DNA from: Kocuria rosea
Lineage (GTDB): Bacteria; Actinomycetota; Actinomycetes; Actinomycetales; Micrococcaceae
Assembly: GCF_006094695.1 (NCBI RefSeq)
Contig: NZ_CP035103.1
Coordinates: 1,922,001 to 1,986,000 of the forward strand
Length of the DNA stretch: 64,000 bases
Direction of reading: 5' to 3'
The notes below the pieces were generated by a model. The model did not search any database and was not told the DNA's origin. It saw only the letters and a list, made by a program, of their open reading frames with translations. Positions 1,557 through 21,225 of the stretch are shown here, piece after piece (position 1 is the stretch's first letter; every line of letters starts with the position of its first letter). The position numbers and the translations under genes are program-made.

Positions 1557-2063
1557 CTACAGAGCGTGGAGGTATCGCCGGGTGTATTGCTGCTGCAGGC
1601 GATGGCTGATCGGTGCCAGGGCGCGGGACCACCAGACGCCTGGCCGGGAGAAGGCGGTGATGGTGAACACGACCGCGTCATCGTCCCGCCAGTCGAGGCA
1701 GAACCTCTCCTCGCCCTGCTCGGGGTGGCCTTGCAGGGTCCCGTAGGCGAAGCCCCGCCGGCGCTCCTCCTCCACCACGTAGATCACCTGGCATCCGAAG
1801 GAGATCCGCAGCATGTGCCGGCCCAGGCGCAGACGGACGCGGCTACCCTGCTCGACCCGGGGTGTGGTGGCCTCGACGGTTAGGCCGGCTGCTCGGTGCA
1901 TCTGCCAGCTCATCAGGCGTTCGGTGGCGCGGCGGAACATCGACTCCCCGTGTCCGAGGACTCGCTGGGCCCTCAGATGGTCGTATCCGTCGGGCAACTG
2001 CCCGGCGGTAGCGCCGACCTCCGGGTAGGTCAGTGGGCGGTCGAGCAAAGTCATAGCGCTCAC
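1557..2063 (-). CDS. DUF1990 family protein
   Basis: A 168-residue protein, about the full length for DUF1990, with family features: N-terminal LTYPEVGATAG, the central RVLGHGESMFRRATERLMSW stretch and a late FAYGTLQGHPEQGEERF segment that resembles a ligand-binding cup. The biochemical function of the family is unknown. The first codon is GTG at 2063; an ATG three codons in (2054) would give MTLLDRPLTYPE and is equally plausible. Upstream is the 3' end of the NAD(P)-binding protein gene on the same strand, 121 bp away, so it could be read through from there. Confidence 0.75.
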   Translation of the reverse strand: MSAMTLLDRPLTYPEVGATAGQLPDGYDHLRAQRVLGHGESMFRRATERLMSWQMHRAAGLTVEATTPRVEQGSRVRLRLGRHMLRISFGCQVIYVVEEERRRGFAYGTLQGHPEQGEERFCLDWRDDDAVVFTITAFSRPGVWWSRALAPISHRLQQQYTRRYLHAL

Positions 2064-2184
2064 TATGCCAAGGGAGCGCTTTGCATATGGCCTGGCTGCC
2101 GGTCACGGCCTATGAGGGGGACGTTGCAGAATGGGTTGGTTTTCACCGTGTTTGCCAGGAAGCGGGCCAAAGGGTCTTACGGGT

Positions 2185-2931
2185 TCAGATGAAGAGGGCG
2201 CGGTTGAGGCGTACGCCGTATTCGGCGTCGAGGTTGGTGGTGGCGTCCCCGACTCGTTCCTGGATGGCGGCGACGGCCAGGTCGCGTCGCGTCGGCGATC
2301 GCCTCGCGTCCGCTGCCCCCCACTGCTCCGGCATCTCTTCGAGGGCGAGGTCGGTGCAGTAGCACGGGGTGCCCGGCTGCTGGCGCCACGGCTGCGTCAA
2401 CGGGCCCGCGTCGAAGGCGTCGAAGCCGGTGGCTTCGACGAGGGCCATGCCCACGGCCCGGTGGTGGTCGTCATCGGCTGCCACGGGGATGGCGATGCGG
2501 TCCGGACTGCCTGCCGGTTGACCCTTGGCTGCGAAGGAGGGGGAGCCGATGGCGTTCCACGCCTTGACGACCGGTCGCCCCAGCTGTTCGGCCACCCACA
2601 GGCTCTCGACCTGACCGGCCTCGATGGCCTCGATCCTGCCGTCGCGCTGCGGATAGTAGTTCGAGGTGTCGATGACCACGGTGCCGGACGGCAGAGCGGT
2701 GAGCAGCGGCGCGAGCTGCGGAAGACGGTGCAGGGGAACGGAGAGGATCACGACGTCGACATCGATGACCGCTTCGGCCGCCAGGACCGCACGTCCGCCT
2801 GAGGCCAGCACCTCGGCCCCGATCGTTTCGGGCCCGCGCGAGTTGGCGACCTCGACGTCGTGTCCGGCTGCGCTCAACCGCTGGGTCAGGGTGGTGCCGA
2901 TGTGCCCGGTGCCCAGAATGCCGATCTTCAT
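2185..2931 (-). CDS. NAD(P)-binding oxidoreductase, F420-reductase-like (first of two paralogues)
   Basis: A 248-residue Rossmann protein beginning MKIGILGTGHIGTTL, with the GxGxxG loop at the extreme N terminus, then NSRGPETIG (dinucleotide phosphate-recognising loop) and DTSNYYPQRDGRIE. This architecture is that of the NADPH-dependent F420 reductase / ProC-like NADP oxidoreductase family. The C-terminal half is longer than in archaeal Fno, and I see no definite F420-binding signature, so the cofactor is open. It follows the DHA2 pump by 53 bp on the same strand and is probably co-transcribed. A paralogue with the same motifs sits at 5793-6509 on the other side of tetR. Confidence 0.75.
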   Translation of the reverse strand: MKIGILGTGHIGTTLTQRLSAAGHDVEVANSRGPETIGAEVLASGGRAVLAAEAVIDVDVVILSVPLHRLPQLAPLLTALPSGTVVIDTSNYYPQRDGRIEAIEAGQVESLWVAEQLGRPVVKAWNAIGSPSFAAKGQPAGSPDRIAIPVAADDDHHRAVGMALVEATGFDAFDAGPLTQPWRQQPGTPCYCTDLALEEMPEQWGAADARRSPTRRDLAVAAIQERVGDATTNLDAEYGVRLNRALFI

Positions 2932-2984
2932 GGTCTGTCTCCTTTGCTGCAGGTGGATGCCCGATGGGGGCGAGGGGGTGTGGG

Positions 2985-4520
2985 TCAGGCCGTTGCGGCC
3001 GGGGCCGTGAGTGTGGGTTCCGCGGGGGTGTGCGGGTCGACCGATCGGGGGCGGCGCACGAACAGGGTGGCGAGAGCCGAGGCGGAGGCGACGACGGCCG
3101 CGGCGGTGAAGGCGGCTTGTGCGGCCGAGACGGACTGGGCCAGGTCCAAGGGGCCGGTGCCGTGTGCGGTGGACCCAAGGGTGTAGGCGGAGACGAGCAC
3201 GGCGGTGCCGGCCGCGCCACCGAGCTGCTGGATGGTGCCGAAGGCCGCGCTGCCGTGGGGGTACAGATGGGCGGGCAGTGCCGACAGTGCGGCCGTGGTC
3301 AGCGGGCTCCACATCAGTGCCTGCCCGATGATCATGGTGATGTAGGCGATGAGCAGCGTCGAGACGGCCGTGCCGGAGTCGATGCGGCTCAGGAACCACA
3401 GGGAGGCGGCCACGATGAGTGCCCCGGGGACCGCCAGGGGCCGGGGGCCGAGGCGGTCGTAGAGCCGCCCGCCGCTGGCCGAGACCACGGCGATCGTGAT
3501 GCCACCGGGCACGAGGAAGAGCCCGATCTGCAAGGTGCCCAACCCGCTGACACTGCTCAGCAGCAGCGGGAAGACGACTCCCGTGCCGAAGGCCGTCATG
3601 GTCAGGGCCAGCATCACCAGCAGCGGCACCGTGAAGGACTTCACGGCGAAGATCCGCACGTCCAGCAGCGCGTCGTCGGTGCGCTGGAGCGCCCGCTGCC
3701 GCAGGACGAACGCGGCGACGCCCAGGACGCCGACGAGGATCGGCAGGGAGGGGGAGACGGGGGTGTGGCCCGAGGTGGACTCCCCGATGGTGGCCAGCCC
3801 GTAGACCAGTGCGCCGAACCCCGCAGCCGAGAGAACGAGGGAGAGCACGTCGAGCTTGATCGGCTCCGGTGTGGTGATGTTGCGCAGCTTCACCGCGCCC
3901 AGCACGAGCCCGGTCAGGGCGACCGGCACCATCAGCAGGAACAACCACCGCCAGCTCAGCTGGGACAGGACCAGGCCCGAGACCGCCGGGCCCAGGGCCG
4001 GTGCTGCGGAGGAGACGATCACGACCAGCGCCATGAACCGGCCCTGGCGGGCCGCCGGAACCAGGCGCATGGTGGTGGCCATCAGCAGCGGCAGGAAGAC
4101 GGCGGTGCCGATGGCCTGGATGATCCGGCCGGTGAACAGGACCCCGAAGCCGGGGGCGAGGGCGGCGAGCACCGTCCCTGCAGTGAAGAGCGACATCGCG
4201 GTCAGGAAGACGGTGCGCAGGTGGAACTTGCGCATCACGAAGCCGGTGGCCGGGATCAGGACGGCGAGGGTGAGCAGGTAGCCGGTGGTCAGCCACTGCC
4301 CGGTCGTCGCGGTGATCGCCAGCTCCTCGATGAGGGTGGGCAGCGCGACCCCCAGCAGCATCTCGTTCAGCAGCACGATGAAGGTCGAGGCCATCAGCAG
4401 CCCCAGGACGAGGCCATCACCGGGGGCCAGTTTGTCGCGCGCATCCACGACCTGGGAAGTGCTCAGAACGGGGGGCTCGGTGTCGGGCTGTGGGTCGATC
4501 GACGCCTGGCGGGTGGTCAT
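2985..4520 (-). CDS. MFS drug transporter, DHA2 (EmrB/QacA-like) family
   Basis: A 511-residue integral membrane protein with about 14 hydrophobic segments, typical of 14-TM DHA2 drug:proton antiporters. Visible landmarks are the first helix ending LLNEMLLGVALPTLIEEL, the TGQWLTTGYLLTLAVLIP segment (motif D-like), the loop 2-3 RKFHLRT and the antiporter-type helix 5 with SAAPALGPAVSG. ATG at 4520 is preferred over an in-frame start at 4574 because it is preceded by GAAAGAGAG and gives a normal short N terminus. Its promoter carries two copies of the CGGAG-N5-CTCCG operator, so it should be derepressed with the flavin monooxygenase when the TetR protein at 4984 binds its effector. Confidence 0.88.
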   Translation of the reverse strand: MTTRQASIDPQPDTEPPVLSTSQVVDARDKLAPGDGLVLGLLMASTFIVLLNEMLLGVALPTLIEELAITATTGQWLTTGYLLTLAVLIPATGFVMRKFHLRTVFLTAMSLFTAGTVLAALAPGFGVLFTGRIIQAIGTAVFLPLLMATTMRLVPAARQGRFMALVVIVSSAAPALGPAVSGLVLSQLSWRWLFLLMVPVALTGLVLGAVKLRNITTPEPIKLDVLSLVLSAAGFGALVYGLATIGESTSGHTPVSPSLPILVGVLGVAAFVLRQRALQRTDDALLDVRIFAVKSFTVPLLVMLALTMTAFGTGVVFPLLLSSVSGLGTLQIGLFLVPGGITIAVVSASGGRLYDRLGPRPLAVPGALIVAASLWFLSRIDSGTAVSTLLIAYITMIIGQALMWSPLTTAALSALPAHLYPHGSAAFGTIQQLGGAAGTAVLVSAYTLGSTAHGTGPLDLAQSVSAAQAAFTAAAVVASASALATLFVRRPRSVDPHTPAEPTLTAPAATA

Positions 4521-4619
4521 CGGGGGCTCTCTTTCATCACGCTGTGGTTCGGCCTCGAGGAGGAATCCGGGCAACCCGGGTCCCTGTGGTCAATGGCGGG
4601 GGAGAGGCGTAACCTCAAA

Positions 4620-4667
4620 CGGAGAACGCCTCCGCATCAGTAAAGCGGAGAGTAACTCCGTTTGACA
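4620..4667 (-). promoter_or_regulatory. Efflux-pump promoter with two TetR operators
   Basis: Two copies of a 15-bp palindrome CGGAG-N5-CTCCG lie at 4646-4660 (spacer AGTAA) and 4620-4634 (spacer AACGC), 26 bp centre to centre. On the minus strand the first sits between a TTGTCA -35 (4667-4662) and a TTTACT -10-like hexamer 18 bp on, so a bound repressor would block polymerase directly. The second lies downstream of the -10. The same arrangement is seen before the monooxygenase gene. Confidence 0.75.
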
Positions 4668-4943
4668 AGTGGTTGCCTCTCTCCCTGCCGGTGATCGTGG
4701 CCACGTCTCGGGTGGGGGTTGGCGACTGGGGTCTGTGGGTCAATGGCGCAGCATCGGTGGCGTTGGTGCGGGGGTCATGCCCGGAGTGCGTGCCGCAGTT
4801 CCCAGATCGAGTCCCCGGCCGTGGTGCAGTGCGGTGGCTGGGGCTGAGCTGGTTCTGCAGGTGGCCGGAGGTGTGGATCCTGCCGGGCGGAACACCGCGG
4901 GTCTTGATGTAAAAGACGCCCTCGCTTGCCCTCGACGACCATG

Positions 4944-4958
4944 CGGAGATAGTCTCCA
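4944..4958 (+). promoter_or_regulatory. TetR operator before tetR itself
   Basis: CGGAG-ATAGT-CTCCA, matching the operator consensus with one change in the last base, 26 bp before the tetR start codon. It suggests autoregulation. It is a single and weaker copy, in line with a repressor that keeps a basal level of itself. Confidence 0.65.
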
Positions 4959-4983
4959 CTTACTCGAGGAGAGGAGCCCGACC

Positions 4984-5586
4984 ATGACCGAGGCAGAGAC
5001 CGGCACGCGCCGGCCGCGCACCGACGCACGGCGCAACCGCACACGCATCCTCGAAGTCGCCGAAGAGTTCTTCGCCGAGGCCGGCATCACCGGGTCCCTG
5101 GACGCGCTGGCCAAGCGGGCCGGCGTGGGAGCCGGAACCCTCTACCGGCACTTCCCCAACCGCGACGCCCTGCTGGCCGCCCTGCTGCAGGCCCGCAACG
5201 AGGAGCTGGAGGCCCAGCTCGAGGCCCTCAGGCAGGAGACCGACGCGGCGGTTGCTCTGGAGCACTGGCTGGACGCGCTGGGGGAGTGGGTGACCGCCTT
5301 CGACGGACTGCCCGACCCCCTGCGGGCGGCACTGTCCCAGGAGTCCTCCCCGCTGGCGATCACCTGCCAGGGCTTCATTGCGACCACCGAGGAGTTCCTC
5401 GGCGCGGCCCAGCGCGAGGGCACAGCCCGGTCGTGGGTGCGCGGGCGGGACCTGTTCCTGGCCGCCCTGGCCACGGCCTGGGTGCGCGGGGCAGCCATGG
5501 CCGACGAGGCCTCGGCCCAGGCCGTGCGCGAGATGATCCGCTCCGGCTGGGCCACACCCCGACCCGAAGACGCCCCTGCGAACTGA
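4984..5586 (+). CDS. TetR-family repressor of the local efflux/monooxygenase module
   Basis: A 200-residue TetR regulator. Residues 15-65 hold the DNA-binding domain: RTRILEVAEEFFAEAG, then SLDALAKRAGVGAGTLYRHFPNRDALL, with the GTLYRHF recognition-helix signature. The remainder is an alpha-helical ligand domain of the SACE_7040/TetR_C type. ATG at 4984 has a strong GAGGAGAGGAG ribosome binding site. The gene sits between divergent targets. All three promoters carry CGGAG-N5-CTCCG palindromes, which is the size and symmetry expected for a TetR dimer. Inducer unknown; probably a hydrophobic or electrophilic compound handled by the pump and oxidoreductases. Confidence 0.88.
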   Translation: MTEAETGTRRPRTDARRNRTRILEVAEEFFAEAGITGSLDALAKRAGVGAGTLYRHFPNRDALLAALLQARNEELEAQLEALRQETDAAVALEHWLDALGEWVTAFDGLPDPLRAALSQESSPLAITCQGFIATTEEFLGAAQREGTARSWVRGRDLFLAALATAWVRGAAMADEASAQAVREMIRSGWATPRPEDAPAN

Positions 5587-5792
5587 CCAGCACGGGCAGC
5601 CACGGGACCGCCCACGCAGCCCAGCGTCGAGCGCGGTGTTCCTCGGAACGAAGCGGCAACGACCGCGGAGTCCATGGGGAGTCCCAGACATCGGCCCGCC
5701 GGCACGTCGTGAACCGCCAACGACGGGACCTGCGCCCCAGTGAACGTCACCACCCCGACCCCATTCCACCTATCCCGGAGCGAGGACTCGTC

Positions 5793-6509
5793 ATGCCCAC
5801 CCTTGGAATCATCGGCAGCGGGAACATCGGTGCGGCCATCGCCCGCCTGGCGACAGCGGCCGGCACCCCGGTCGTCGTCGCCAACTCCCGCGGTCCCGAA
5901 ACCCTCATCGATCTCGTTGCCGAGTTGGGCCCGCTGGCCACCGCCGGTGCCGTCGAGCAGGCGGCTGCCGCCGGGGAGTTCGTGGTGCTGTCCGTGCCGC
6001 TGACCGCGACGACCGCGATCCCGGCGGCCCTGCTGGAGGGAAGGACGGTGGTCGACACCAGCAACTACTACCCGTTCCGCGACGGGCGCATTCCCGTCCT
6101 CGATGCGGACGAGTTCACCACCGGCGAGCTCGTCCAGCGCCACTTCGCCGGAGCCCAGCTGGTCAAGGCGTTCAACAACATCCTCGCCCACCACATCCCC
6201 GCCCTGGCCCGCCCCGCCGGGGTGCCTGACCGCACCGCACTGCCCATCGCGGGCAACGACGCCGCGGCGAAGACTCGAGTGGCGGCACTGATCGATCGGT
6301 TCGGCTTCGACACCGTCGACACCGGCACCCTGGCCGAGAGCTGGCGGTTCGAGCCTGAGGCCGCCGCCTACACCCGCCTCTACCTCGCCGATCCCACCAC
6401 CCCCGATGAGCGCCTGCTCGAGGCCCCCGCCGGGACCGTGCCGGCCGCCCGGCTGGTCTCCGCCCTCGAGGGCGCGCAGCGGGTACGGGTGGCCGAGCGC
6501 ACCTTCTGA
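5793..6509 (+). CDS. NAD(P)-binding oxidoreductase, F420-reductase-like (second paralogue)
   Basis: A 238-residue Rossmann protein beginning MPTLGIIGSGNIGAAIARL (GxGxxG), followed by NSRGPETL and DTSNYYPFRDGRIP, the same signature pair as in the protein at 2185-2931. The match marks the two as paralogues. The ATG at 5793 follows GGAGCGAGGACTCGTC and starts directly at the nucleotide-binding strand, which is normal for this family. It lies 206 bp behind tetR and could be read from the tetR promoter. Function is likely reduction of a carbonyl or a deazaflavin/flavin cofactor with NADPH. F420 use is an open guess. Confidence 0.72.
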   Translation: MPTLGIIGSGNIGAAIARLATAAGTPVVVANSRGPETLIDLVAELGPLATAGAVEQAAAAGEFVVLSVPLTATTAIPAALLEGRTVVDTSNYYPFRDGRIPVLDADEFTTGELVQRHFAGAQLVKAFNNILAHHIPALARPAGVPDRTALPIAGNDAAAKTRVAALIDRFGFDTVDTGTLAESWRFEPEAAAYTRLYLADPTTPDERLLEAPAGTVPAARLVSALEGAQRVRVAERTF

Positions 6510-6611
6510 CCCGGCCGGAGGTCGGCACGGTGGCCCACTGATTTCACCGCGACATCTGTCCCCGCGGTTGCCCAGCGCTCGTCCACCTTCCGGAGCAGGG
6601 TTCCCGGCCCT

Positions 6612-6669
6612 TTGACAATCCGGAGACTTTCTCCGTATCGTTGGAGCGAGTATACGGAGAAAGGCTCCG
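6612..6669 (+). promoter_or_regulatory. Monooxygenase promoter with two TetR operators
   Basis: A consensus -35 TTGACA (6612-6617) is followed 18 bp later by TATCGT (6636-6641). Operator CGGAG-ACTTT-CTCCG (6621-6635) fills the spacer. A second perfect copy CGGAG-AAAGG-CTCCG lies at 6655-6669, 34 bp centre to centre and 30 bp before the ATG. The layout mirrors the efflux-pump promoter. Confidence 0.8.
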
Positions 6670-6699
6670 TTTAAGTGCCCTCTCACTGGAGACTCCTCG

Positions 6700-8034
6700 A
6701 TGACCAGCCCGCAGATGATCCTCGGCATGCAGCTCGGCAACGGCTACGGCTCCCAGCCCGCCGCCTGGCGGGCCCCCGGGGTGGACCCGTCCAACTACAC
6801 CGACTTCGACGCCCAGGTCCGCTACGCCCAGGCCGCCGAACGCGGGAAGTTCGCTTTCCTGTTCCTGCCCGACTTCCTGGCCCTGAGCGGGGACCCGGAG
6901 CACGAGGCACCCATGCTGACCCTGGAACCCATGATGACGCTGGCGGCGATCGCTCGGGGCACCCGGCGCATCGGGCTGGTGGCCACCGGCTCGACGACCT
7001 TCAACGAGCCCTACAACCTCGCCCGGCAGTTCAAGGCCCTGGACGTGATGAGCCACGGCCGGGCCGGCTGGAACGCGGTGACCACCAGCGACCCCAGCTC
7101 CGCGGCCAACTTCGGCCGCCAGATCGCCGCCCGACCACAGCGCTACCAGCGCGCCCACGAGACCATCCAGATCACCCAGGCGCTGTGGGGCAGCTGGCAG
7201 CCCGACGCCTGGCACAAGGACCCCGCCACCGGGCGGTTCGCCGACCCGGGCAAGATCCAGGCGATCAACCTGGGCGGGGAGCACGTCGCCTCCCAGGGGC
7301 CGCTGCCCATTCCGCCTTCGGAGCAGGGCCAGCCGGTGATCTTCTCCGCCGGCGGCGGGGCGAACGGGCTCGAGATAGCCGGCCGGTACGCCAGCGCGGT
7401 TATCGGCGCGGTGTTCACCATCGAGGACGCCCGGGCCCAGCGCGAAGCCATCAGGGACGCTGCACGACGGGCCGGACGGAACCCTGACGAGGTGAAGTTC
7501 TTCGCCGGGGTGATGCCGGCCATCGGCCCCACCAAGCGCGCCGCCCTGGACCGCCGCGTGGCCCTGGGCGAGCTCATATTCCCGGCCCGTGTCCCGTACC
7601 TGGGGTCCATGCTGGGACTGGAGCTGGAGGTCGGTCAGCTGGACCGGCCGCTGACTCCCGCCCAGCTGGCCGCCGCCCGCCCCAACCCCTTCGATCCCCG
7701 CTCCCCGCGAGCGCTGGAAGTCGCCCGCGAAGGGTGGACCATCCGCGACGTTCTCGCCCACGGGGTCATCGACTACCACCCGACCCCGGTGGGTCCTGCC
7801 TCCGTGACCGCCGACCACCTGCAGGAGTGGTTCGAGGCCGGGGCGGCCGACGGCTTCTGGGTCTCCATCGACGTCTACGAGGACGGGATCGACACCTTCG
7901 TCGACGAGGTCGTGCCCATCCTGCAGGAGCGCGGGCTCTACCACCACGACTACGAGGGCCCCACCCTGCGCGAGAACCTGGGAGCCCACGAGCAGTACGG
8001 GTTGGACGCCCGGCTCACGGACCCGGCCCGATGA
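6700..8034 (+). CDS. LLM-class flavin-dependent monooxygenase (NtaA/SnaA/DmoA family)
   Basis: A 444-residue luciferase-like monooxygenase, full length for the NtaA/SnaA/SoxA group. It uses FMNH2 from a partner reductase to oxidise small molecules such as dimethyl sulfide, aminopolycarboxylates or thioethers. Seen in the sequence: YAQAAERGKFAFLFLPD near residue 50, TFNEPYNLARQFKALDVMSHGRAGWNAVTT around 110-140 (the family's FMN-barrel motif with GWNxVTT), and VIFSAGGGANGLEIAGRYA near 220. The ATG at 6700 is preceded by CTGGAGACTCCTCG. The last codon overlaps the start of a truncated flavin reductase (ATGA), a typical coupling of oxygenase and reductase. Controlled by two TetR operators. The substrate cannot be inferred. 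Confidence 0.88.
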   Translation: MTSPQMILGMQLGNGYGSQPAAWRAPGVDPSNYTDFDAQVRYAQAAERGKFAFLFLPDFLALSGDPEHEAPMLTLEPMMTLAAIARGTRRIGLVATGSTTFNEPYNLARQFKALDVMSHGRAGWNAVTTSDPSSAANFGRQIAARPQRYQRAHETIQITQALWGSWQPDAWHKDPATGRFADPGKIQAINLGGEHVASQGPLPIPPSEQGQPVIFSAGGGANGLEIAGRYASAVIGAVFTIEDARAQREAIRDAARRAGRNPDEVKFFAGVMPAIGPTKRAALDRRVALGELIFPARVPYLGSMLGLELEVGQLDRPLTPAQLAAARPNPFDPRSPRALEVAREGWTIRDVLAHGVIDYHPTPVGPASVTADHLQEWFEAGAADGFWVSIDVYEDGIDTFVDEVVPILQERGLYHHDYEGPTLRENLGAHEQYGLDARLTDPAR

Positions 8035-8222
8035 CCCCGGCCATGCAAACAGCAGCCGACCGGCAGGACATCGACCCCCGGGCCTTCCGGGACTCCCTGG
8101 GGCACTACGCCTCCGGGATCACGATCATCACCGGCCATGATGAGCAGGACCCGAACGCGCTCGAACCTCTGCTGTATTTCCAGGGACGGTACCGCCGCCT
8201 GGGCCCGGACGAGACACCCTGA
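8031..8222 (+). pseudogene. Flavin reductase with internal in-frame deletion
   Basis: A 63-residue frame whose two halves match the two ends of HpaC/NtaB-type flavin reductases. Residues 17-36 (PRAFRDSLGHYASGITIITG) are the usual N terminus. Residues 44-58 (LEPLLYFQGRYRRLG) are the usual C terminus (family form EPLLYFRGxYRxL). From family knowledge roughly 100 residues, including the flavin-binding barrel, are missing between them, and the junction stays in frame. The start overlaps the monooxygenase stop (ATGA), so the pair was once translationally coupled. The product cannot bind flavin; the monooxygenase must rely on another reductase or be idle. Confidence 0.75.
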
Positions 8223-8575
8223 GGCACATCACCGTGCACTGAGGGCGAGGGCTCCACCACACCTTCAGGGCCGGAACAGTCGCTGATTGACTCGTGGGCA
8301 GTGGAGTCAAGAGCGGCTTCTTCCCCACCGCTTCACAAGTGGCCCGTTAGCGGCCTACCGTGCTGCGGTAGAGGTTGCTCACCGCTGCGGCTCGTCCGCG
8401 GCGCGCCCGGCGCCCCCGGAACAACCGGTGGCCACCGGGTTCTGCGGAGGGGAGCAGCCGACGAGCCTGGGCGGCCAGCCGCGGACGTGCCTGTGACGAT
8501 CATGAGATCCGCTGACCTGTGCTGTGGGGTCGGCCGGCTGTTGGCACCGCCCTTCGACGTCCAGGAGAACCAGCC
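8223..8575 (+). other. Intergenic stretch, nothing recognised
   Basis: A 353-bp gap behind the truncated flavin reductase. Open frames here are short and have no family features or ribosome binding sites. It may be scar sequence from the rearrangement that shortened the reductase, but no insertion-sequence ends are visible. Confidence 0.5.
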
Positions 8576-9145
8576 ATGAGTCCCCGCATCCGCCCCGCTG
8601 CGACTTCTGACCTGGACGCTGCGGCACGGGTCCTCGCCGCTGCCTTCGAGACGTACTCGTGGACGCGGTGGACCGTTCCCGCAGACGGCTACCGCACGCG
8701 TCTGGAGGAGATCCAGCGACTGTATCTGTCGCACACCCTCGAGCACGGCCTCGTGCTCGTGGACGAGCAGGTGAGTGCGGTCGCCGCTTTCCTCCCGGCG
8801 GATGCGGCGGACCCACCAGCACCGACACAGCATCGGATCGCCGAACTCCTCGGGGCACGTCTGACTGCCCTCACCGGCCTGGATCTGCCTGCCGCCCCGG
8901 TGGGCTCATGGACCCTCGAGACGGTCGGCGTTCACCCTGCCCGGCAAGGCGCGGGTTTGGGAACAGCGGTCATCGTAGCGGGCCTGGCACTGATTGACCG
9001 GCGCGGGGAGCCCGTCGTACTGGAGACCTCGGACGAACGAAACGTGCACCTCTACCAGCGTCTTGGATTTGCCACCACCGCCACCACTGCGATCCCGGCA
9101 GGTCCCGTCGTCTACTCGATGAGCCGCACGGCGTCGCGTGGGTGA
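8576..9145 (+). CDS. GNAT-family N-acetyltransferase
   Basis: A 189-residue GCN5-related acetyltransferase. The N terminus SPRIRPAATSDLDAAARVLAAAFETY is the usual beta1-alpha1 of the fold. The acetyl-CoA-binding motif A is at about residues 115-135 (ETVGVHPARQGAGLGTAVIVAG, with the Q-x-x-G-x-G pyrophosphate loop). The C-terminal motif B region reads LETSDERNVHLYQRLGF. ATG at 8576 is preceded by CAGGAGAACCAGCC; an in-frame codon at 8519 is less likely. Acceptor substrate unknown: such proteins acetylate amines of drugs, small metabolites or protein N termini. Confidence 0.85.
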   Translation: MSPRIRPAATSDLDAAARVLAAAFETYSWTRWTVPADGYRTRLEEIQRLYLSHTLEHGLVLVDEQVSAVAAFLPADAADPPAPTQHRIAELLGARLTALTGLDLPAAPVGSWTLETVGVHPARQGAGLGTAVIVAGLALIDRRGEPVVLETSDERNVHLYQRLGFATTATTAIPAGPVVYSMSRTASRG

Positions 9146-9269
9146 AGGAGCGCCTTCCCTCTCCCCGAGGATCCTCTGGGCACGGACGGTAGAACGCACG
9201 CTCGGGGTTCGAAGCGGGCTCATCACTCATTGATGCCCACAACTGTGGTGCCGGCCTCGACGTCAGTGC

Positions 9270-21018: not shown

Positions 21019-21154
21019 CCGGGTCCGGCCTCCCGCACCGTGGCAGGAGAGGCGCCGTGCTCGGCGCTCTGGGAACCGCGGGGCGGTGAGTTGCCGGTCG
21101 GCCGGATCGGACGGGTCGCGAGATCGGCGCAGCATCTGAGGTCCGGGCAACGAC

Positions 21155-21201
21155 AGCGGTGGGGGCCGGACGGAGAAGTTCTCCGTCCGGCCCCCACCGC
21201 T
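21155..21201. terminator. Long bidirectional terminator hairpin
   Basis: AGCGGTGGGGGCCGGACGGA (from 21155) and its complement ending at 21201 form a stem of about 22 bp with a tiny loop at 21177-21179. It separates the plus-strand isomerase operon from the minus-strand transketolase genes and would stop transcription from both sides. Confidence 0.8.
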
Positions 21202-21225
21202 GTGCCGTGCTGCTCGGTGCCGTGC

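Follow-up and report, generated by a model that had tools for sequence, protein, structure and literature searches.

Background

In the excerpts of the published accounts used here, Tn10-type TetR/tetO systems have 15-bp palindromes in pairs that control both the gene of the repressor and a pump (PMC3511530), and no side chains of TetR other than Arg28 and Gln38 are said to form hydrogen bonds with bases, their partners being guanine +2 and adenine +3 in the 15-bp tetO (PMC7102968). The same 2 residues are tabulated together with Gly35 and Tyr42 in a paper on AmtR (PMC2723105). Divergent actinomycete pairs of TetR with an MFS pump or an enzyme resemble the locus described below, with the repressor adjoining a pump or monooxygenase and with multiple palindromes; in contrast, the operators in the part of Table 2 considered here include no CGGAG-N5-CTCCG (PMC3511530). 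Correlations between residues and operator bases have been used for the same kind of inference in other families, LacI, GntR, MerR, and IclR, as far as the sections of those studies used here go, and no comparable study for the TetR family was found in the literature searched on such correlations.

The locus and its genes

We analyzed a 64,000-nucleotide stretch of Kocuria rosea DNA (genome positions 1922001-1986000), referred to as the window, in which a tetR gene lies beside genes for an efflux pump, a monooxygenase, and 2 NAD(P)-binding proteins (Table 1). The initial annotation had placed CGGAG-N5-CTCCG palindromes before the pump (2 copies), the monooxygenase (2), and tetR (1). All positions and mismatches were found again. 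The distances from site start to start codon are -143 and -117 for the pump (start codon at 4520, minus strand), -79 and -45 for the monooxygenase (6700), and -40 for tetR (4984). Sequence comparison makes it highly probable that the TetR-type repressor binds these 5 palindromes and controls the local pump, tetR, and monooxygenase units.

Table 1. Genes, operator copies, and promoters of the locus, in window positions
Feature	Position	Strand	Description	Basis
NAD(P)-binding protein	2185..2931	-	downstream of pump	comparison with Kocuria locus L016
Efflux pump	2985..4520	-	DHA2/EmrB-type MFS	TIGR00711, 262.5 bits (cut-off 230.2)
Operator copy	4620..4634		perfect; sixth bases A/G; downstream copy at pump promoter	aligns with L016 site 5901
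Presumed pump promoter	4639..4668	-	TTGTCA-18-TTTACT; spacer holds the 4646 copy	reading by eye; not reported by scan
Operator copy	4646..4660		perfect; sixth bases A/T; in presumed pump -35/-10 spacer	aligns with L016 site 5927
Operator copy	4944..4958		one mismatch; sixth bases A/A; before tetR	aligns with L016 site 5961
TetR repressor	4984..5586	+	TetR_N and TetR_C_43 (SbtR-like)	profile matches over cut-off
NAD(P)-binding protein	5793..6509	+	downstream of tetR; F420_oxidored domain	PF03807, 69.3 bits
Monooxygenase promoter	6612..6641	+	TTGACA-18-TATCGT	scan, 10/12 consensus matches
Operator copy O1	6621..6635		perfect; sixth bases A/A; in monooxygenase -35/-10 spacer	
Operator copy O2	6655..6669		perfect; sixth bases A/C; at monooxygenase promoter	
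Monooxygenase	6700..8034	+	NtaA/DmoA family, FMN-dependent	TIGR03860, 390 bits (cut-off 279.7)
Flavin reductase remnant	8031..8222	+	63 aa; overlaps monooxygenase stop	L016 counterpart 175 aa

The TetR protein scored 51.6 bits against PF00440 (TetR_N, curated cut-off 24) and 37.4 bits against PF21597 (TetR_C_43, curated cut-off 27), which places it in both families, and the latter cut-off was also exceeded by 9 of 10 sampled homologues. Its closest named relatives are 2 Kocuria proteins, 89 and 88% identical. The protein encoded at 2185-2931 is 88% identical to its own counterpart in L016 and 39.5% identical to the L016 relative of the 5793-6509 protein. The flavin reductase remnant consists of both ends of the L016 protein, joined in frame and lacking the middle 112 codons.

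The NtaA/DmoA monooxygenase family works with reduced FMN. The 5793-6509 protein was rejected as an NpdG-type F420 reductase (TIGR01915, 33.6 bits versus an equivalog cut-off of 149.8), and no match to the F420 ligase PF01996 was identified in the genome, so NAD(P)H rather than F420 is the likelier cofactor of this protein. A CofD-family match in the genome is not diagnostic, since the same model also matches in E. coli, and F420 dependence of the cassette is not supported.

Within the window's clade, 29 loci (the window among them) were examined for sites up to 260 bp upstream of genes. Such sites preceded tetR in 26 of the 29 loci, the monooxygenase in 15 of 20 matches (with the broken gene of locus L027 counted twice), and the pump in 9 of 12 orthologues, whereas none was identified before the NAD(P)-binding genes (0/18 and 0/9 matches) or the flavin reductase (0/3). 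The initial annotation had tied pump, monooxygenase, and NAD(P)-dependent proteins into one inducible response; since neither NAD(P)-binding gene has its own operator, the two would belong to it only as presumed downstream genes.

An NtaA/DmoA monooxygenase gene was identified near tetR in 6 of 14 annotated plasmid stretches (out of 20 fetched), from Deinococcus, Sphingomonas, Agrobacterium, Pararhizobium, Rhodococcus, and Streptomyces, and several of these 6 add a pump or NAD(P)-binding protein. We infer that the pump-monooxygenase set may be a mobile detoxification or catabolic cassette. Behind intact operator pairs, the monooxygenase gene of L027 (4504-5971) is in several pieces, and L022 has a short fragment (8046-8366).

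Conservation and residue-base covariation

The 250 bp upstream of 80 TetR homologues (the best 80 of 193) were scanned for the operator. A perfect CGGAG-N5-CTCCG was identified in 52 of these best 80 loci, and 53 had at least 2 copies at no more than 1 mismatch; 19 permuted half-sites occurred in at most 1 of the 80 and other spacers in at most 4. In a wider set of 171 homologues, including the window along with further genomes and plasmids, the perfect N5 site was upstream of 67, N4 of 15, and N6 of 6. No N4-N6 site at up to 1 mismatch was identified upstream of 54 of the 171, many of them remote TetRs. Other clades keep the CGGAG half-site with an N4 or N6 spacer. The reading of the palindromes as TetR operators, put forward in the initial annotation, thus gains from their recurrence beside TetR homologues of several phyla and before monooxygenase and pump orthologues, and further from covariation with residue 40 of the repressor.

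A first alignment linked the operator base at +/-2, counted from the dyad centre, to 2 residues of the helix-turn-helix, which in the window protein are Asp40 and Ala50. By mutual information (59 rows), columns 40 and 50 were the top 2 of 183, in that order. The rule is that Asp40 goes with A, Glu40 with G, and Arg40 with C at position +/-2. Among the 47 non-redundant rows of the discovery set, D40 had A in 25, mixed bases in 6, and C in 1, E40 had G in 10, R40 had C in 4, and N40 had A in 1. The 23 held-out rows comprised D40 with A (7), mixed (3), and G (1), E40 with G (3), A (1), and mixed (1), R40 with C (4), N40 with mixed bases (1), and 2 gap rows with A. Adding N4 sites gave 85 rows, a test that is post hoc because these sites were added after being seen: E40 with G in 24, mixed in 2, and A in 1; R40 with C in 9; D40 with A in 32, mixed in 9, G in 2, and C in 1; N40 with A in 2 and mixed in 1; and gap rows with A in 2. 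Loci L135-L137, which repeat L016, L017, and L027, and rows 90% or more identical were dropped from the counts.

We then compared independent pairs on well-supported branches of a 71-row tree built with the helix-turn-helix columns removed, leaving out mixed-base rows and rows with a gap at residue 40. With N4 sites included, the G/E association had 7 independent pairs, of which 6.4 on average were concordant and none ran the other way (median p 0.0156), the C/R association had 4 (3.0 concordant, p 0.25), and residue 50 against G had 7 (4.5 concordant, p 0.0625). Before N4 sites were included, G/A had 5 pairs (4.6 concordant, p 0.0625), and the first tree had 4 (3.8 concordant, p 0.125); these earlier trees also omitted mixed-base rows, and L152 and L165 had too few columns for them.

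As the sole determinant, residue 50 was rejected, classifying G by a single column in 93% of cases versus 96% for residue 40 (baseline 63%). Proteins with E40/P50 still go with G (L142, L214, and L216), and one with R40/I50 goes with C (L199). Exceptions were kept in the counts: L141 (E40, A50) has A, and L155 (D40, I50) has G. Cases that separate the 2 residues favour residue 40, with L141 against. Acetobacter-type D40/I50 proteins have mixed bases or C, and the N6 sites of D40 proteins have G or mixed bases; since D40 with I50 gives mixed bases, residue 50 would matter too.

His44 is the TetR equivalent of the conserved His of the motif. With the conserved Gly, Tyr, and His as reference points, residues 40 and 50 of the window protein would equal Arg28 and Gln38 of TetR, going by the part of the AmtR paper used here (PMC2723105). 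The variable base lies at +/-2, the position of the Arg28 contact, and with R40 the base at +2 is G, as in TetR.

A rather unlikely alternative, which concerns the rule alone, is that it reflects the shared ancestry of clades and not direct contact. The few independent C/R pairs and the mixed bases of D40/I50 proteins leave room for it, as do trees of about 140 columns with several long branches; against it stand the G/E pairs without an opposite case, the first rank of column 40, and the contact of the equivalent TetR residue with the same operator position in the portion of the structural account used here (PMC7102968). It is probable that one TetR subfamily has kept the CGGAG half-site from Actinomycetota to Deinococcota, Pseudomonadota, Acidobacteriota, and Bacillota, with repeated switches of base +/-2 via residue 40 (Asp-A, Glu-G, and Arg-C, of which Arg-C would recapitulate the contact of Arg28 with guanine in TetR) and with spacer changes among N4, N5, and N6, the rule being kept at N4. 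If true, this would be a natural and predictive recognition code, with parallel detoxification switches kept from cross-talk.

In the window, the sixth base is A in 7 of 10 half-sites. The copy at 6621 is predicted to be bound most tightly, because both of its sixth bases are A, as the rule for Asp40 expects.

Several related groups were observed besides. Of the 54 homologues lacking an N4-N6 site upstream, 18 make up a single clade of E40/I50 proteins (L043-type; 14 from Streptomyces and 4 others); CGGAGG half-sites are predicted for these repressors, without such a site upstream, and CGGAGG-N2-3-CCTCCG occurred in none of the 10 of these 18 loci that were scanned whole. L056, L058, L077, L079, L157, and L167 have CGGAG half-sites with a 6-base spacer, where the residue-40 rule is unclear. 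A related longer paired palindrome, CGGAACGC...GCCCCG or CGGGGC...GCTCCG, lies upstream of the homologues L147, L149, L158, and L161.

Promoter architecture and regulatory model

The sole sigma-70-like promoter found by a scan of 2000-9200 was that of the monooxygenase, in the order TTGACA (6612-6617), O1 (6621-6635), TATCGT (6636-6641), and O2 (6655-6669). It can be aligned with the monooxygenase promoter of Streptomyces locus L020 (z 10.6), and a pair like O1/O2 also precedes the monooxygenase at -78/-43 in L020 and at -77/-43 in L228. The pump promoter is weak by consensus. The initial annotation had one copy filling the -35/-10 spacer and a second downstream at both promoters, which holds for the monooxygenase in the scan and for the pump only by eye.

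We compared loci with -35 and -10 hexamers (TTGACA-like and TATAAT-like) sought at fixed offsets around a copy, read away from tetR. A copy was flanked by both hexamers in 62 of 82 loci versus 4.7% of shuffled flanks, a control that is somewhat low because real loci could pick the better of their copies and shuffled flanks could not. Neighbouring copies were 21-36 bp apart in 80 of 83 pairs, with peaks at 24, 31, and 34-35.

In the repression model, dimers of the 4984-5586 protein would occupy the 5 palindromes, with Asp40 reading the base at +/-2. A dimer on O1, within the -35/-10 spacer, would block RNA polymerase at the monooxygenase promoter, and a second dimer would sit on O2, 34 bp beyond O1, where the two might cooperate. 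The pump promoter would have a similar layout, and the single 4944 site before tetR would provide autoregulation. The presumed transcripts are those of the monooxygenase, of the pump, and of tetR, the latter two each including one of the NAD(P)-binding genes. Release of the repressor would follow binding of a small molecule to its C-terminal domain, probably the compound that is exported by the pump and modified by the monooxygenase and reductases; from gene content alone, we infer that this inducer may be toxic or xenobiotic.

Some TetR proteins activate. Activation here, by itself or along with repression, could be accommodated by paired sites of such variable spacing; we consider it highly improbable, given that a copy over the -35/-10 spacer with another downstream fits blocking.

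Specificity within the genome

Within the window, the core at up to 1 mismatch had 22 matches versus 11.9 +/- 3.5 in 100 shuffles, one of which reached 22, and this count is weak evidence. The 3.95-Mb single-contig genome holds 56 perfect cores versus 6 for the same pattern read backwards, and the bare 15-bp core was rejected as a genome-wide marker of the regulon for this abundance. Surroundings were checked for 15 of the 56, and each of these lies inside a frame of 311-1005 codons free of stops; in DNA so rich in GC such frames are common and do not amount to gene calls. Two further perfect cores in the window were rejected as operators: 21171, which sits within a long perfect and terminator-like inverted repeat (21150-21205), and 55437, by its context in a long open frame.

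A whole-genome scan for the core with A/T-rich flanks, TACGGAGANNNNCTCCGNTT, at up to 2 mismatches returned the 5 sites and one further place, 366020, which was rejected as an operator (in a coding frame, GC3 0.92). At 3 mismatches there were 32 and 31 matches on the 2 strands versus 15 and 19 in the control. With the flanked motif confined to the locus apart from 366020, the regulon looks locally restricted, in a scan that more diverged sites would escape. The initial annotation had held that a motif occurring at random throughout the genome would speak against it; on those terms the 56 bare cores would tell against its reading if the flanked motif were not limited to the locus.

The genome has 8 other TetR-like matches, and no comparable site was found in their loci of about 3.2 kb. 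A TetR-like match lies just before the window, at genome positions 1921619-1921831 (170-380 bases ahead of where the window starts), and its locus has no CGGAG-type site. These data bear on the possibility that the palindromes serve a regulator encoded elsewhere and that the neighbouring TetR is not the binder. The link between motif and regulator comes here from position and comparison only, yet the site travels with the TetR subfamily across phyla, its variable base follows residue 40, and the 8 other TetR-like loci lack it, so such a regulator is, by a small margin, even more improbable than activation. Least probable of all are RNA hairpins, terminators, or chance words of GC-rich DNA, for which the frequent core and the repeat at 21171 would speak, given that Rfam has no match in 4400-6800, no terminator-like site is reported at the 5 copies, and the position of a copy between -35 and -10 is conserved in other species.

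Evolution among Kocuria relatives

At E <= 1e-30, 5 genomes out of 27 from the genus had the TetR, counting the one that the window comes from. In the 2 closest Kocuria relatives, L016 and L017, the intergenic region common to tetR and the pump is 206 bp long, compared with 463 bp in the window, and the flavin reductase is full length. Window 4560-4675, which contains sites 4620 and 4646, can be aligned with the part of L016 that has sites 5901 and 5927 (z 14.7); for 4676-4900, the reading as a copy of the intergenic region of Kocuria was not supported (z 1.1). The TTGACA beside the 5961-type site in these relatives corresponds to TCGAGT beside 4944. In the window strain, pump, tetR, and monooxygenase would thus be separately operated units. 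No site at up to 2 mismatches was found before the monooxygenase in L016 and L017; operator pairs precede the Streptomyces monooxygenases of L020, L022, and L228, which suggests that the monooxygenase operators were lost in L016 and L017.

Comparison with known systems

No paper on the CGGAG-N5-CTCCG operator, the residue code, or the regulation of the cassette was found in the literature searched, a search that figure-only motifs and subscription papers would escape; nor did the residue-base rule and spacer changes proposed for this subfamily turn up there. A guess at one locus becomes a testable operator for a large TetR group without a described site in the literature searched, with a residue-to-base rule that can be checked by one substitution. 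The pump-monooxygenase cassette occurs on plasmids of several phyla, and its inducer can be screened for with a simple reporter.

In its C-terminal domain, the window protein is like the SbtR-like TetR proteins (PF21597), scoring above the Pfam cut-off, and its best PDB matches are 3vuq (SbtR), 2q24, 2qwt, and 2rek. SbtR's own site differs from the window operator, and we know of no operator for 2q24, 2qwt, or 2rek.

The type of switch is ordinary and known, and comparison supports it well at this locus. In the part of the Tn10 TetR/tetO descriptions used here, the likenesses are the TetR fold, paired 15-bp palindromes, and a base +2 recognized by the counterpart of residue 40 in the window protein. 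Unlike that system, the window has another half-site, Asp in place of Arg28, a different C-terminal domain, and a putative regulon that includes monooxygenase and NAD(P)-binding genes.
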